A stretch of 64,000 nt of DNA from a bacterium (GTDB taxonomy: Bacteria; Bacillota; Bacilli; Lactobacillales; Streptococcaceae): contig CAJNDD010000006.1 of assembly GCA_905221435.1 (NCBI GenBank), forward strand, positions 1 to 64,000, read 5' to 3'. Below, in pieces: positions 1-4,966 of this stretch. The notes under the pieces are model-generated. The model was not told the origin of the DNA. It made no database searches and was given only the letters and a program-made list of their open reading frames with translations. Each line of letters opens with the position of its first letter. Within the stretch, counting starts at the first letter, position 1. Made by a program: the position numbers and the translations under genes.

Positions 1-425
1 TATCACCAGTTTTAGATGGCTTTAACAGCGAAATTATTGCTTTTAATCTTTCTTGTTCGCCTAATTTAGAACAAGTACAAACGATGTTAGAACAGGCATT
101 CACAGAGAAGCACTATGAGAATACGATTCTCCACAGTGACCAGGGCTGGCAATACCAACACGATTCTTATCATCGGTTTCTAGAGAGTAAGGGAATTCAA
201 GCATCTATGTCCCGCAAGGGCAACAGCCCAGACAATGGGATGATGGAGTCCTTCTTTGGCATTTTGAAATCCGAAATGTTTTACGGCTATGAGAAGACAT
301 TTAAATCACTTAATCAATTGGAACAAGCTATTGTGGACTACATTGATTACTACAACAACAAACGAATTAAAGTCAAACTAAAAGGACTTAGTCCTGTGCA
401 GTACAGAACTAAATCCTTTCAATAA
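1..425 (+). CDS. IS3-family transposase OrfB, C-terminal part (5' end outside window)
   Basis: The frame is already open at position 3 and runs to the TAA at 423-425, so the ATG at 84 is internal. The visible part is the end of the DDE (rve) integrase domain of an IS3/IS150-type OrfB. It contains HSDQG, with the second catalytic Asp, and DNGMMESFFGILKSE, with the catalytic Glu, followed by YNNKR and a C-terminal SPVQYRTKSF. Such proteins cut and join the element ends during transposition. The likely right terminal repeat follows at about 431-455. Whether the element is whole cannot be told from this window. A shorter decayed relative lies at 46793-46952. Confidence 0.9.
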   Translation, partial: SPVLDGFNSEIIAFNLSCSPNLEQVQTMLEQAFTEKHYENTILHSDQGWQYQHDSYHRFLESKGIQASMSRKGNSPDNGMMESFFGILKSEMFYGYEKTFKSLNQLEQAIVDYIDYYNNKRIKVKLKGLSPVQYRTKSFQ

Positions 426-430
426 TTATT

Positions 431-455
431 TGTCCAACTTTTTGGGGTCAGTACA
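431..455 (+). repeat. Probable right terminal repeat of the IS3-type element
   Basis: Immediately after the transposase stop lies TGTCCAACTTTTTGGGGTCA followed by GTACA. A degraded version of the same string (TATCTAACCTTTTGGCGTGA) follows the transposase remnant at 46930-46952, which supports reading this as the element end. The left end is outside the window, so the repeat cannot be paired. Confidence 0.55.
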
Positions 456-477
456 CACTAGGCTCCTTTTTGGTTTT

Positions 478-1722
478 TTAGTTACTTGCGCCAGAAGTAG
501 CGTCTGCGCCACCACCGTGACCTCCAGCATCACCTGAATCAGAAGCGCCAGAAGTAGCATCAGCATCTCCATGTCCTCCAGCAGCAGGAGCAAATGGTCC
601 GCTACCACCTACCAAACGTTGACCAGTTTCTTTTAGGTACCAGTCAAGCCATGGTTGGAAGTTAAAGACGATTTCATTGATTCCAGCGTATGATCCATCA
701 GGATAGTACATTGCTTGGTAGTTGTGGGTGTTGATGACACCTGCAGGAGAACCTGGAACGATCGTACGAACGTATTCTTGGTTTCCGTTGCGAAGTGTTC
801 CGATAACCCACTCTACGTTCTTCATACGTGCTGGTGGAAGAGAACCATGAACAGTCGACATACGGCTACCTGATTGAGGTGGTACACGTTTAGCAAACAT
901 GGTGTCTGGATCTTGGTGAGCGTTGTTGTAGTATAGGAATTGGTTGTTGTCGTCAGCGTATGTCAATTCAAACGGCATAGCTTTCAAAAACATATCAATT
1001 TGGTTAACGGTCAAGATACCGTGGTCCAGTTTGACATAGGTATCACCAGAAACAGCGCCAGTGATTGCTGCAACTTTTTCTACCCATTCTGGATCGTCAG
1101 GATCAACTTCTGTGATAGTTGTAGCAATTGGTTTTCCACAATCCAAGTCTTCTGGTTCGATTGGTTTTGGTTTTTTCAATTTCGAAACGACTCCTACGTA
1201 TTTTACAAAGTTATCTAAGCAAGTTTCAAGGAATTTAACAGTTCCTTCGTTGGTGATGTTTCCATTGTTATCAAAAGCTTCTTTGGCTTTACCAAGAAGG
1301 AACTCATTTCCTGGAAGCGTGTAGGCATTAACACCTGGAGCATCAAGGATTTTACGAAGGTGAACTTGTGCACGTGATGTTCCTTGGTCATAGTATGATG
1401 CACCCACAATCATAACAGGCTTGTTTTCAAATGGATGAACTTCGTATGAAAGCCATTCAAGTACAGATTTGAGAGAAGCTGAGATAGTGTGGTTGTGCTC
1501 AGGAGTAGCGATAATGACACCATCAGCACGTGTAATCTTGTTATACAAGAAACGCAATTGGAAGCTTTCGTCCCATTTTTCGTCTTGGTTAAACATTGGA
1601 ACTTCGTCGATTTCAAGGACTTCTAATTCAAATTTGAATTTGAAATTGCGACGGATAAATTCCAAGAGTTTGCGGTTATATGATTGATCGTAGTTTGATC
1701 CAACAAGTCCAACAAATTTCAT
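478..1722 (-). CDS. FMN reductase-like protein with PAS-like domain and doubled ApbE flavinylation motif
   Basis: 414 residues in three parts. Residues 1 to about 185 form a flavodoxin-like NAD(P)H-dependent FMN reductase fold (GSNYDQSYNR near the start, ATPEHNHTISASLKS, GASYYDQGTSRAQVHLR). Residues about 230-370 (from LTVNQIDMFLKAMPFELTY to FNFQPWLDWYLKETGQR) resemble the PAS-like module of DUF438-type proteins. The tail, about residues 375-414, is Gly/Ala/Asp/Ser-rich and contains DATSGAS twice, at residues 388-394 and 407-413. This matches the known ApbE acceptor consensus Dxx[ST]GA[ST], in which FMN is joined to the last Ser/Thr. It is the third gene of an operon starting with apbE, 17 bases after the second. 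I infer a soluble redox protein carrying one or two covalent FMNs; its electron acceptor is unknown. Confidence 0.85.
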   Translation of the reverse strand: MKFVGLVGSNYDQSYNRKLLEFIRRNFKFKFELEVLEIDEVPMFNQDEKWDESFQLRFLYNKITRADGVIIATPEHNHTISASLKSVLEWLSYEVHPFENKPVMIVGASYYDQGTSRAQVHLRKILDAPGVNAYTLPGNEFLLGKAKEAFDNNGNITNEGTVKFLETCLDNFVKYVGVVSKLKKPKPIEPEDLDCGKPIATTITEVDPDDPEWVEKVAAITGAVSGDTYVKLDHGILTVNQIDMFLKAMPFELTYADDNNQFLYYNNAHQDPDTMFAKRVPPQSGSRMSTVHGSLPPARMKNVEWVIGTLRNGNQEYVRTIVPGSPAGVINTHNYQAMYYPDGSYAGINEIVFNFQPWLDWYLKETGQRLVGGSGPFAPAAGGHGDADATSGASDSGDAGGHGGGADATSGASN

Positions 1723-1739
1723 TCTTTCTGTCTCCTATC

Positions 1740-2345
1740 TTACAAATTTTCCCAGTCGAATTCTTCAGCATCTTTGCGAAGCAACTCTTTTGCGTTGCGC
1801 AATTTATCGGTAATCTTAACAAAGATACGGAAGTCGTCAAAGATGGCATCCAATTTTTGGATAACGTCGAGGTCAACCAAGTCGCCACTTGGGTTAAATG
1901 CTTGAAGGGAGTGTGAGAGCAAGAATTCATCTGGTAGAACATTTGCCTTGATTTCAGGAGCGTTCAAGATTTGACGAAGTTGCAATTGGGCACGAGATGA
2001 ACCAAGTGTACCGTATGAAGCACCAGTAATCATGATTGGTTTGTTCAAAAGTGGGTAGATACCGTAAGATAGCCAAGCAAGAGCGCTCATCAAAACTGCA
2101 GGGATAGAGTGGTCGTACTCAGGAGTACCGATAATCACACCATCAGATGCTTCAATTTTAGCTGCAATTTCAAGAATTTCAGCAGGAAGAAGTTTATCTG
2201 CTGGTTTGTTGAAAACAGGGATGTCCTTGATTTCAACGAGTTCAATTTCAGCTTTATCAGCAAAGTGTTTTTGCATGTATTGGAGCAATTGGCGGTTTGT
2301 AGAACGTTTAGAGTTCGTTCCAACAATGGCAATAAGTTTTAGCAT
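1740..2345 (-). CDS. NAD(P)H-dependent FMN reductase family protein
   Basis: 201 residues, a single flavodoxin-like domain of the NADPH-dependent FMN reductase family. Visible family motifs are VGTNSKRSTNRQLL (phosphate loop for FMN, residues 8-21), GTPEYDHSIPAVLMSALAWL in the middle and GASYGTLGSSRAQLQLRQIL after it. These proteins move electrons from NAD(P)H to flavin or quinones in the cytoplasm. It is clearly a paralogue of the N-terminal domain of the next gene, from which it is separated by 17 bases. It lacks both the PAS-like part and the SGAS tail. The order apbE, this gene, tailed paralogue suggests it may hand electrons to, or dimerise with, the tailed protein; that is inference. 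Confidence 0.88.
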   Translation of the reverse strand: MLKLIAIVGTNSKRSTNRQLLQYMQKHFADKAEIELVEIKDIPVFNKPADKLLPAEILEIAAKIEASDGVIIGTPEYDHSIPAVLMSALAWLSYGIYPLLNKPIMITGASYGTLGSSRAQLQLRQILNAPEIKANVLPDEFLLSHSLQAFNPSGDLVDLDVIQKLDAIFDDFRIFVKITDKLRNAKELLRKDAEEFDWENL

Positions 2346-2363
2346 GAGATTTCCTTTCTCTTT

Positions 2364-3293
2364 TTACATAATACAATTTTGAAGGCCTGAAGAACAAGCA
2401 AGGCGTCCCTCTTTGTCGATGAGGATGGCTTCAATCCCATCTATACTTTCGACTTGCCAGAGGATAGAAGCGCTTCGCTCTCCGAAAAGGCGTGTTGTCC
2501 ATATCTCACCATCAACGGATTTATCAGAGATAATCGTTAGGCTAGCGAGATCGGTTTCGACAGGGAATCCTGTCTCACTATCAAAGATATGGTGATAGTC
2601 TTTTCCATCTACTGTCAGGTGGCGTTCATAGATACCTGAAGTGACAACAGATTTGTTAGAAGCAGGGATAGTTAGGAGATGATTGCCACGAGGATTTCGC
2701 GGATCTTGAATCCCAATCTGCCAGGCTTTCCCTTCTTTGGCTTGGTTATTCCCGATGGTGAGGATATTCCCTCCGAGATTGATCAAGGCAGAGGTGACAC
2801 CGTGAACTTTCAAATACTGGGCAACCTTATCGGCACTATAGCCCTTGGCTAAGCAACCTAAATCAAGCTTCATTCCCTTCTTCTCTAAAAAGACAGTAGA
2901 GCTAGTCGAATCTAACTTGATAAAATGCGGGTCAACTAGAGGTAAGACAGTTTCGATTTCATTTGGCTTTGGAAGCCGAGCATCTGCAAAACCGATTCGC
3001 CAGGTTTGAATCAAGGGACCGATACTGATATTTAGGTGGCTAGAGGGAGCTAGACTATGCTCAAGTCCAAGGGTAATCAGTTCAAACAGGTCAGGATGAA
3101 CCTTAACAGGTGCGATTCCAGCCTGGTAGTTGATTTCCATCAGTTCGGATTCTTGACTGTTGGCGTTAAAGCGGTATTCGAGCTCCTTGAGCAAGTCAAA
3201 GGCTCCTTGAAGTAGGCAATCAGCCCGTTCATCTATTAATGAAATCGTGATAGTTGTTCCCATTAGCCGTTCAGAGTGCGAATGAAGAGGCAA
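2364..3293 (-). CDS. apbE: FAD:protein FMN transferase, cytosolic type
   Basis: ApbE-family flavin transferase, which takes FMN from FAD and attaches it through a phosphoester bond to a Thr or Ser in a target motif. Family signatures are the N-terminal MGTTITISL, DLGCLAKGYSADKVAQYL, INLGGNILTIG and HHIFDSETGFPV. There is no signal peptide or lipobox, unlike exported ApbE, so it should act in the cytoplasm. The start is uncertain. The ATG at 3326 has no visible ribosome site, whereas a TTG at 3293 sits 8 bases after AAAGGAG, and I use that one (about 310 residues). It heads an operon with two FMN reductase-like genes, the last of which carries two candidate target motifs. Confidence 0.9.
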   Translation of the reverse strand: MPLHSHSERLMGTTITISLIDERADCLLQGAFDLLKELEYRFNANSQESELMEINYQAGIAPVKVHPDLFELITLGLEHSLAPSSHLNISIGPLIQTWRIGFADARLPKPNEIETVLPLVDPHFIKLDSTSSTVFLEKKGMKLDLGCLAKGYSADKVAQYLKVHGVTSALINLGGNILTIGNNQAKEGKAWQIGIQDPRNPRGNHLLTIPASNKSVVTSGIYERHLTVDGKDYHHIFDSETGFPVETDLASLTIISDKSVDGEIWTTRLFGERSASILWQVESIDGIEAILIDKEGRLACSSGLQNCIM

Positions 3294-3381
3294 GCTACCA
3301 GCTCCTTTCTTCCTATAGGAAATCATTCAATATAAGATAGTTAGAGAAATTAAACCCCTTACATTTTCTTTCCATGTATCT

Positions 3382-3520: not shown

Positions 3521-3549
3521 TTGTAAACGCTAACAGCAAATGATATACT
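3521..3549 (+). promoter_or_regulatory. nox promoter with overlapping perfect cre site
   Basis: -35 TTGTAA (3521-3526), 17-base spacer, -10 TATACT (3544-3549). The -35 is itself the beginning of TTGTAAACGCTAACA (3521-3535), a full match to the cre consensus WTGNNANCGNWNNCW. CcpA bound here would cover the -35 and block polymerase. The site is about 115 bases from the cre-like site on the divergent apbE promoter. Confidence 0.7.
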
Positions 3550-3586: not shown

Positions 3587-4966
3587 ATGAGTAAAATCGT
3601 TGTAGTTGGTGCTAACCACGCTGGTACAGCTTGTATTAATACGATGTTGGACAACTTTGGTCATGAGAATGAAATTGTGGTATTTGACCAAAACTCAAAT
3701 ATTTCATTCCTTGGTTGTGGAATGGCACTTTGGATCGGTGAGCAGATCGATGGTCCAGAAGGTCTCTTCTACTCTGATAAAGAGAAATTGGAAGCTAAAG
3801 GCGCTAAAGTTTACATGAACTCGCCAGTACTTTCAATTGATTACGACAATAAAGTTGTGACTGCAGAAGTAGAAGGCAAAGAACACAAAGAATCTTACGA
3901 TAAACTGATCTTTGCAACTGGTTCAACTCCAATCTTGCCTCCAATCGAAGGTGTGGAAATCGTTAAGGGTAACCGCGAATTTAAAGCAACTCTTGAAAAT
4001 GTACAATTTGTTAAATTGTACCAAAACGCTGAAGAAGTTATTGAAAAACTTGAAGATAAGAGCAAACACCTTGAGCGCATTGCCGTTGTTGGTGGTGGTT
4101 ACATCGGTGTAGAACTTGCTGAAGCCTTTGAGCGTCTTGGAAAAGAAGTGGTGCTTGTGGATATCGTGGACACTGTTTTGAACGGCTACTATGACAAAGA
4201 CTTCACTCAAATGATGGCGAAGAACTTGGAAGACCACAACATCCGCTTGGCGCTTGGTCAAACAGTTAAAGCCATCCAAGGTGATGGTAAAGTGGAACGC
4301 TTGGTAACAGACAAAGAAACATTTGATGTGGATATGGTTGTTCTTGCAGTTGGTTTCCGTCCAAACACAGCTCTTGCGGATGGTAAGATTGAACTCTTCC
4401 GCAACGGTGCCTTCCTTGTAGACAAGAAACAAGAAACATCTATCCCAGGTGTCTACGCTGTTGGTGACTGTGCGACTGTTTATGACAATGCACGTAAAGA
4501 CACTAGCTACATCGCTCTTGCATCTAACGCTGTACGTACTGGTATTGTGGGTGCTTACAACGCTTGTGGTCATGAGTTGGAAGGAATCGGTGTTCAAGGA
4601 TCAAATGGTATCTCTATCTACGGTCTTCACATGGTTTCAACTGGTTTGACTCTTGAAAAAGCCAAAGCTGCTGGCTATAACGCAACTGAAACTGGCTTTA
4701 ACGATCTTCAAAAACCAGAATTTATCAAACACGACAACCACGAAGTTGCCATCAAGATTGTCTTTGATAAAGACAGCCGCGAAATCCTTGGTGCACAAAT
4801 GGTGTCTCGTGACTCTGCAATTAGCATGGGAATCCATATGTTCTCACTTGCTATCCAAGAGCATGTAACAATTGACAAGTTGGCCTTGACAGATCTCTTC
4901 TTCTTGCCACACTTTAACAAACCATACAACTACATCACTATGGCTGCACTTACAGCTGAAAAATAA
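3587..4966 (+). CDS. nox: NADH oxidase, water-forming
   Basis: 459 residues, the pyridine-nucleotide disulfide oxidoreductase family member that reduces O2 to water with NADH, regenerating NAD+ for fermentation and removing oxygen. FAD-binding GANHAGTAC lies at residues 8-16. The single redox-active cysteine is Cys44 in FLGCGMALW, the cysteine that cycles through sulfenic acid in Nox enzymes. An NAD-binding [15 protein letters not shown] follows near residue 165, and the second FAD motif [12 protein letters not shown] near 290. The ribosome site AAAGGTGG precedes the ATG. It is monocistronic, with a strong terminator after it, and is divergent from the apbE operon. Confidence 0.96.

Follow-up and report, generated by a model that had tools for sequence, protein, structure and literature searches.

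A streptococcal apbE operon codes for an FMN reductase–PAS protein with a predicted flavin-bearing tail, related to FRedA/FRedB and LjPAS of Lactobacillus johnsonii

The 64-kb window analysed here, positions 1 to 64,000 of contig CAJNDD010000006.1 (assembly GCA_905221435.1) from a member of the Streptococcaceae, carries close to its first position a three-gene operon predicted to function in protein flavinylation. The genes code, in order of transcription, ApbE (a flavin adenine dinucleotide (FAD):protein flavin mononucleotide (FMN) transferase), a small FMN reductase and a longer FMN reductase, termed here the tailed protein, whose carboxyl terminus bears two DATSGAS motifs (Table 1). They are spaced by 18 and 17 bp. 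Open reading frames (ORFs), Pfam domains and motif positions bear out this arrangement, which had been put forward in a preliminary description of the sequence. The TTG start assigned to apbE is preceded by AAAGGAG, and its distance to the conserved MGT is about that found in most fetched homologues.

Table 1. Features of the apbE operon and its surroundings in the window.
Feature	Position	Strand	Remarks
apbE, FAD:protein FMN transferase	2364..3293	-	TTG start 3293; ORF from ATG 3326; Pfam ApbE 1.5e-75
small FMN reductase, presumed partner subunit	1740..2345	-	Pfam FMN_red 6.6e-34
FMN_red–PAS_10–flavinylation tail protein, 414 amino acids	478..1722	-	FMN_red 1-147, PAS_10 242-355
PAS_10 domain, residues 242-355	658..999	-	
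flavinylation motif 1, DATSGAS, residues 388-394	541..561	-	
flavinylation motif 2, DATSGAS, residues 407-413	484..504	-	
terminator-like hairpin, 5' arm, after operon	461..470	-	by eye; insertion sequence (IS) from 460 cuts hairpin
cre-like site (catabolite-responsive element), one mismatch, nearer nox	3521..3536	+	
nox, H2O-forming NADH oxidase, divergent neighbour	3587..4966	+	NCBIfam NF046103 5.8e-231

The tailed protein combines an FMN_red domain with a carboxyl terminus extension that holds the flavinylation motifs. AlphaFold predicts two folded regions (residues 1–180 and 213–366), followed by residues 372–414 with a predicted local distance difference test score (pLDDT) below 50, and a Pfam scan detects neither an FMN_bind nor a FAD_binding_2 domain. 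The motifs are thus located in a flexible tail and not in an FMN_bind fold, as the preliminary description had it. The same description assumed two reductase domains in this protein. A single FMN_red domain is present, the assignment of the second folded region to PAS_10 excludes another one, and the second reductase is the product of the separate small gene. Structure searches with the PAS domain lead to 2QKP and PF0695, and membership of another PAS family is possible. The two DATSGAS copies are the sole matches to D..[ST]GA[ST] among the six-frame open stretches of at least 60 amino acids of the window. In 200,000 shufflings of the 43-residue tail at least two motifs appeared in 3.5e-5 of the cases and at least one in 1.3%.

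The window ApbE features the transferase domain together with the serine, histidine, arginine and Mg-binding acid of these enzymes. Its closest solved relative is 7ESA (E 1.2e-78), which we take to be Listeria FmnB, in agreement with the 7ESA numbering. The FmnB catalytic site includes Ser257, Arg262 and His273, with Asp301 as Mg ligand (PMC8906456). Their counterparts were compared in 46 sequences taken as non-secreted (the window ApbE and 45 fetched ones) and in eight longer ApbEs taken as secreted controls. Ser230, Arg235 and His246 (numbered from the ATG at 3326) are conserved in 46/46 non-secreted enzymes. The position of Asp301 is Glu274 in the window ApbE and is occupied in the non-secreted set by Glu (42), Asp (3) or a gap (1), whereas the aspartate is kept in 8/8 secreted controls. 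A hydrophobic amino terminus stretch is found in six of these controls, the other two having been read from an inner methionine, and is absent from the window ApbE. This supports by inference the earlier proposal that ApbE, whose catalytic residues are conserved, has no signal peptide and would share the cytosol with its target. At three other loci (L140 4727–5755, L147 5102–6130 and L148 5118–6212) the ApbE itself ends in DLASGAS or DLVSGAS, as could be the case for self-flavinylating enzymes, or by chance extension.

Both the tail motifs and their linkage to apbE are conserved. The 80 named loci, which are the best 80 of 494 and hence close kin, code for proteins with two (73), three (3), one (3) or no (1) canonical motifs, and a window-like ApbE is found within the fetched stretch of 79 of them. 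The best 120 of 1406 homologues have two (78), three (23), one (18) or no (1) canonical motifs; they include five S. pneumoniae-named proteins with one canonical motif plus DATAGAS. The tail gene is present in 34 of 59 relatives (28 Streptococcus and 6 others) and is broken in G015 and G016. It adjoins apbE in 21/28 Streptococcus and 6/6 other genomes, while coordinates place ApbE elsewhere in the genome in the remaining seven. The co-occurrence across streptococci suggested by the preliminary description is seen in 79/80 close loci and, as adjacency, in 21/28 Streptococcus genomes. A hand count from the listing of 196 sampled family genomes gives matches at E <=1e-150 in 120 of the 145 belonging to the genus of the window, one of which (G184) has the gene split by a stop. 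Note that the FMN_red–PAS gene is also broken in the Streptococcus genomes L027, L028/L029 and L133, with a transposase-like piece inside it in L028/L029 and a stop in L133. At the level of the order, 246 genomes were searched with a PAS-tail query at 1e-15, irrespective of motifs; 105 match, and ApbE, counted with secreted and non-secreted forms pooled, is found in 222. All 105 PAS-tail genomes have ApbE, compared with 117/141 others (Fisher 8e-7, kinship uncorrected).

Homologues beside apbE that lack SGAS motifs, which the preliminary description regarded as evidence against flavinylation, do exist but are rare among close kin. In L099 (Streptococcus sp. DD10) the canonical motifs are replaced by DATASAS and DATSSAS, and the L025 protein shows only repeats with a glycine-to-serine change. 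They do not refute flavinylation because degenerate copies remain and a partial motif change only lowers modification: in another target a glycine-to-alanine change left flavinylation at about half (PMC12052999). Degenerate tails may still be modified.

The window protein shares the D..[ST]GA[ST] motif with NqrC, RnfG and FMN_bind targets, yet it has no FMN_bind domain and its motifs lie in a disordered tail. An FMN_bind domain is also carried by the fumarate reductase target of K. pneumoniae. This system features a cytosolic ApbE (PMC12052999), resembling the window operon in its signal-peptide-free enzyme and soluble redox target but differing in the nature of the target, a fumarate reductase as opposed to a protein with neither FMN_bind nor FAD_binding_2. 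A LOV domain, which belongs to the PAS superfamily, was engineered to receive covalent FMN from ApbE (PMC10722498); its motif is inside the LOV domain, whereas the window motifs are natural, follow the PAS domain and have a predicted attachment. No natural PAS protein was found as ApbE target in the part of the open-licence literature searched. The nearest published likeness is provided by the Lactococcus FMN_reds WP_021723379.1 and WP_205872264.1, which have an unstructured carboxyl terminus extension with one to two motifs and a cognate apbE (PMC11334425). Their flavinylation was shown by co-expression with the cognate ApbE in E. coli and was lost on Ser/Thr-to-alanine exchange (PMC11334425). 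The FMN_red domain, the disordered motif-bearing tail and the apbE neighbour are all present in the window; the difference is the PAS_10 domain, no PAS domain being described in the accessible part of that report. Because tails of this kind are flavinylated by their cognate ApbE, the window protein very likely carries covalent FMN too. The claim that it is unlike known targets thus holds for the missing FMN_bind fold, but its novelty is smaller than first thought, FMN_red tails having been published as ApbE substrates in 2024.

The organization of homologous systems is variable. The gene order apbE, FMN_red, FMN_red-PAS-tail is found in Streptococcus and in many other Lactobacillales. Lactococcus-type genomes (a genus assignment inferred from names) code for a mostly tailed FMN_red followed by ApbE, with no PAS domain in the same protein and no second FMN_red adjacent; in seven fetched loci of this type a PAS_10 gene without motifs stands on its own in the neighbourhood. 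The PAS-tail module may be fused, free-standing or tripled, or may adjoin fumarate reductase; it usually carries between one and three motifs, but sometimes has none. Among the best 120 of 200 matches, many are free PAS-tail proteins of ~245 amino acids from Lactobacillus, for which three is the usual number of motifs; the 102 of these matches that are shorter than 380 amino acids, some of them fragments, have three (65), two (20), one (8) or no (9) motifs. A paralogue of about 803–826 amino acids, preceded by a small FMN_red, joins FMN_red to FMN_bind and FAD_binding_2, a layout that relays electrons to the FAD domain. Among more unusual forms, L161 (6497–9145) codes for an 882-residue protein in which FMN_red is combined with three PAS_10 domains, and flavinylation motifs, along with decayed versions of them, are interspersed among the PAS domains and follow the last one; one L168 protein has six motifs; and L162 has a two-PAS protein with no canonical motif. 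The lipoprotein-like FMN_bind + PAS_10 protein with motifs of L166 (5148–6350) is apparently an extracytosolic version.

A tree of 61 FMN_red domains (two support values per group) assembles the PAS fusions in one group (99/99) and the small FMN_red partners of both fusion types in another (98/92); the window small FMN_red and its orthologues form one clade (100/96). The tailed FMN_reds of the fetched Lactococcus-type loci, which are not the cited accessions, form a clade of their own (100/98) and so do not share that of the window protein. In view of these groups and of the varied architectures, the carboxyl terminus module looks exchangeable, and it is the PAS part that the flavin sites accompany, since the PAS-tail module exists in fused, free and tripled form.

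The closest functional counterpart is found in L. johnsonii, whose FRedA and FRedB form a heterodimeric NADH:FMN reductase yielding 0.56 hydrogen peroxide (H2O2) per NADH (PMC4500961). In the part of the literature searched, this H2O2-forming NADH oxidase activity is on record for L. johnsonii only. Binding of FMN requires the heterodimer, which has two non-covalent FMN sites with a dissociation constant of about 2 uM and is under-saturated when purified, while added free FMN serves in vitro as substrate with a Michaelis constant of about 20 uM (PMC4500961). Interruption of the reductase genes abolishes H2O2 formation, a result that PMC4500961 credits to Hertzberger et al. 2014. The same work describes LjPAS, a 28-kDa PAS protein produced in E. 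coli whose expression shifts with aeration, and already noted PAS-FMN_red fusions in other species. Both quantitative PCR primers given there for LjPAS match the L. johnsonii-like locus L017 exactly, inside a free PAS-tail gene. Its 28.02-kDa product has the carboxyl terminus motifs DATTGAT, DTATGAS and DTSSGAS. The L017 genome also has two FMN_reds with the 12-bp gap published for FRedA/B, and apbE on the same strand with two genes between. Another PAS protein, smaller than the first and with DAESGAS at its end, is coded at L017 4214–4750, beside an NMN (nicotinamide mononucleotide) transporter gene.

The two adjacent window FMN_reds each match a different L. johnsonii-type protein, the fused one best the first (45.9%) and the small one best the second (44.7%), and the window PAS-tail has 36.8% identity to LjPAS over 231 residues (5.8e-40). 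The assignment of the window FMN_reds to the two subunit types is tentative, as the L. johnsonii-type rows are not firmly placed in the tree. Both systems have two adjacent FMN_reds and a PAS_10 protein; they differ in that the window PAS is fused to one FMN_red with apbE adjacent, while that of L. johnsonii is free-standing. As judged from sequence, the window operon is a fused homologue of FRedA/FRedB plus LjPAS. Flavinylation of FMN_red tails by ApbE was known; the combination of one reductase domain with PAS_10 and the kinship to FRedA/B and LjPAS are new. No report joining ApbE flavinylation to the FRedA/LjPAS H2O2 system was found in the part of the literature searched, and the words ApbE and "covalent" are absent from the part of PMC4500961 that was available. 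Since E. coli was the production host of LjPAS and ApbE goes unmentioned, the purified protein was probably without covalent flavin, and the inhibitory effect ascribed to it may describe an apo form.

These data suggest that the operon codes for a cytosolic, self-contained NADH oxidoreductase with tethered flavins. ApbE would attach FMN to Ser394 and Ser413 of the disordered tail. By homology to the L. johnsonii pair, the fused FMN_red domain and its small partner would assemble into a heterodimer that has two sites for non-covalent FMN, oxidizes NADH and reduces flavin. The covalent tail FMNs, present at high local concentration, would be its natural acceptors in the cell and would pass electrons to O2, with formation of superoxide or H2O2, or to an acceptor that differs between lineages, for instance a soluble fumarate reductase. 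The PAS domain might present the tail to the heterodimer or bind the final acceptor or a signal, which is the least certain step. The role of the tail FMNs as tethered electron acceptors, with onward transfer to O2 or another acceptor, is given a probability of about 0.6. It agrees with most of the facts: free FMN is a substrate of FRedA/B, and the tail would offer it FMN in covalent form. The paralogue with FMN_bind and FAD_binding_2 in the position of the PAS-tail also speaks for it. The simplest acceptor in streptococci would be O2, the adjoining nox coding for a water-forming alternative. Fumarate reductase as a general acceptor is ruled out by a survey of FAD_binding_2 in 25 of the 28 Streptococcus genomes with the fusion: 15 have no relative at 1e-30, seven match solely in the frame of an 808–815-residue paralogue and three in other frames. 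It is possible where the genes adjoin. The L169 (1803–6781) and L170 (5993–11173) clusters hold a soluble flavocytochrome-c-type reductase without FMN_bind, an FMN_red, an FMN_red-PAS protein and a neighbour that is presumably a fumarase; the L170 genes are divergent and its FMN_red-PAS protein has no canonical motif. The flavocytochrome-c-type reductase of these clusters is a candidate acceptor.

Several points weigh against the tethered-acceptor role. The window operon has no acceptor gene, and covalent flavin on PAS-type proteins is a prediction. Canonical motifs are missing in L025, L099, L170, L162 and 9/102 short homologues, some of them fragments. The tree leaves four Lactobacillus rows on long branches, so that the L. 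johnsonii-type proteins are not firmly placed. The L. johnsonii enzyme is inactive at neutral and alkaline pH; preincubation of LjPAS with FRedB halves the initial rate and slows complex formation, and LjPAS has no effect once the heterodimer has formed with FMN, nor in two-hybrid assays (PMC4500961). The tail FMN could, moreover, simply fill the non-covalent sites of a FRedA/B-type enzyme.

The last point corresponds to an unlikely alternative in which covalent FMN is a mere anchor: it would occupy the FMN_red site, either in the same subunit or in the partner, in place of loosely bound FMN. This filling of the FMN_red site was proposed in 2024 for the Lactococcus protein (PMC11334425), and it agrees with the FMN affinity and under-saturation of FRedA/B. 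The number of motifs, however, is frequently two or three and reaches six, against two sites in the heterodimer; in Lactobacillus the tail belongs to a PAS protein of its own and provides no anchor in cis; and free FMN acts as FRedA/B substrate (PMC4500961). Slightly more doubtful is that the PAS-tail is a redox or oxygen sensor regulating the reductase heterodimer, as proposed for LjPAS, with flavinylation tuning the sensor. PAS domains commonly sense. The aeration-dependent expression of LjPAS and its delay of complex formation after preincubation with FRedB (PMC4500961) are in line with such a role, but the Pfam scan shows no output domain in the window protein, the six motifs of one protein and three PAS units of another look like carriers, and the paralogue holds a catalytic FAD_binding_2 domain in the place of the PAS-tail. 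It is most improbable that the streptococcal tail is unmodified and that ApbE acts on a different protein, for instance the FMN_red-FMN_bind-FAD_binding_2 paralogue. Genomes such as G033 do have a single ApbE alongside a paralogue with canonical DAVSGAS, and some tails have decayed motifs; against this stand the adjacency of ApbE and the tail gene reported above, the retention of at least one motif in 79/80 named loci, and G001, the genome nearest to the window, with one ApbE and no paralogue-level match among the matches listed.

The cre-like site is about 50 bp before nox, which it may serve. Control of the operon by this site is not convincing given its mismatch, its position nearer nox and the presence of 16 sites with <=1 mismatch in the window. 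The site and the divergent nox noted in the preliminary description are there, but its sugar-limitation reading rests on this one-mismatch site. In S. agalactiae the apbE-FMN reductase-FMN reductase run SaSA53_0930-0932 shows a joint drop of about 2.1-fold, and SaSA53_0932 is listed in a proteome table (PMC6224512). SPD_1301 and SPD_1302 co-change in two pneumococcal data sets (PMC5327383, PMC8546594) and SPD1300-01 in a third (PMC11559097). SaSA53_0930-0932 and SPD_1300-1302 are taken as the orthologous operon from annotation only, and in the part of the literature searched the pneumococcal tags appear only in transcript or protein tables. Downstream, the operon is directly followed by a partial IS element with rve integrase domains (window 1–460). 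Read by eye, the hairpin after the operon is complete in L001, with its two arms and a run of T's, and the window keeps only the first arm, the 3' arm being absent; the remaining arm is not among the terminators listed by a scan of the window. A fourth operon gene is ruled out: the genes that come next in L001 lie on the opposite strand and are convergent with the operon, and the AAAGGAG that precedes the IS belongs to the hairpin with its trailing T's.

These observations join two lines of work, flavinylation by ApbE and the NADH-dependent H2O2 system of lactobacilli, and extend the latter to most sampled genomes of the genus of the window (120/145). They predict covalent flavin carriage by a protein so far classed among PAS regulators, and offer a possible reason for the need of FRedA/B for free FMN in vitro. 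More broadly, with chances that we consider about even, the PAS_10-tail proteins of Lactobacillales, with LjPAS and the streptococcal fusion among them, would be cytosolic electron carriers with several FMNs, which a non-secreted ApbE dedicated to this task would attach. FRedA/B would then have tethered flavins as its true substrates in place of free FMN, and these flavins would give streptococci and lactobacilli a common outlet for NADH; some members would build flavin arrays (six motifs, three PAS units) or deliver electrons to fumarate reductase. Oral streptococci and lactobacilli shape their niches by the H2O2 that they release, and the system would be a further, directly testable NADH outlet in these bacteria.

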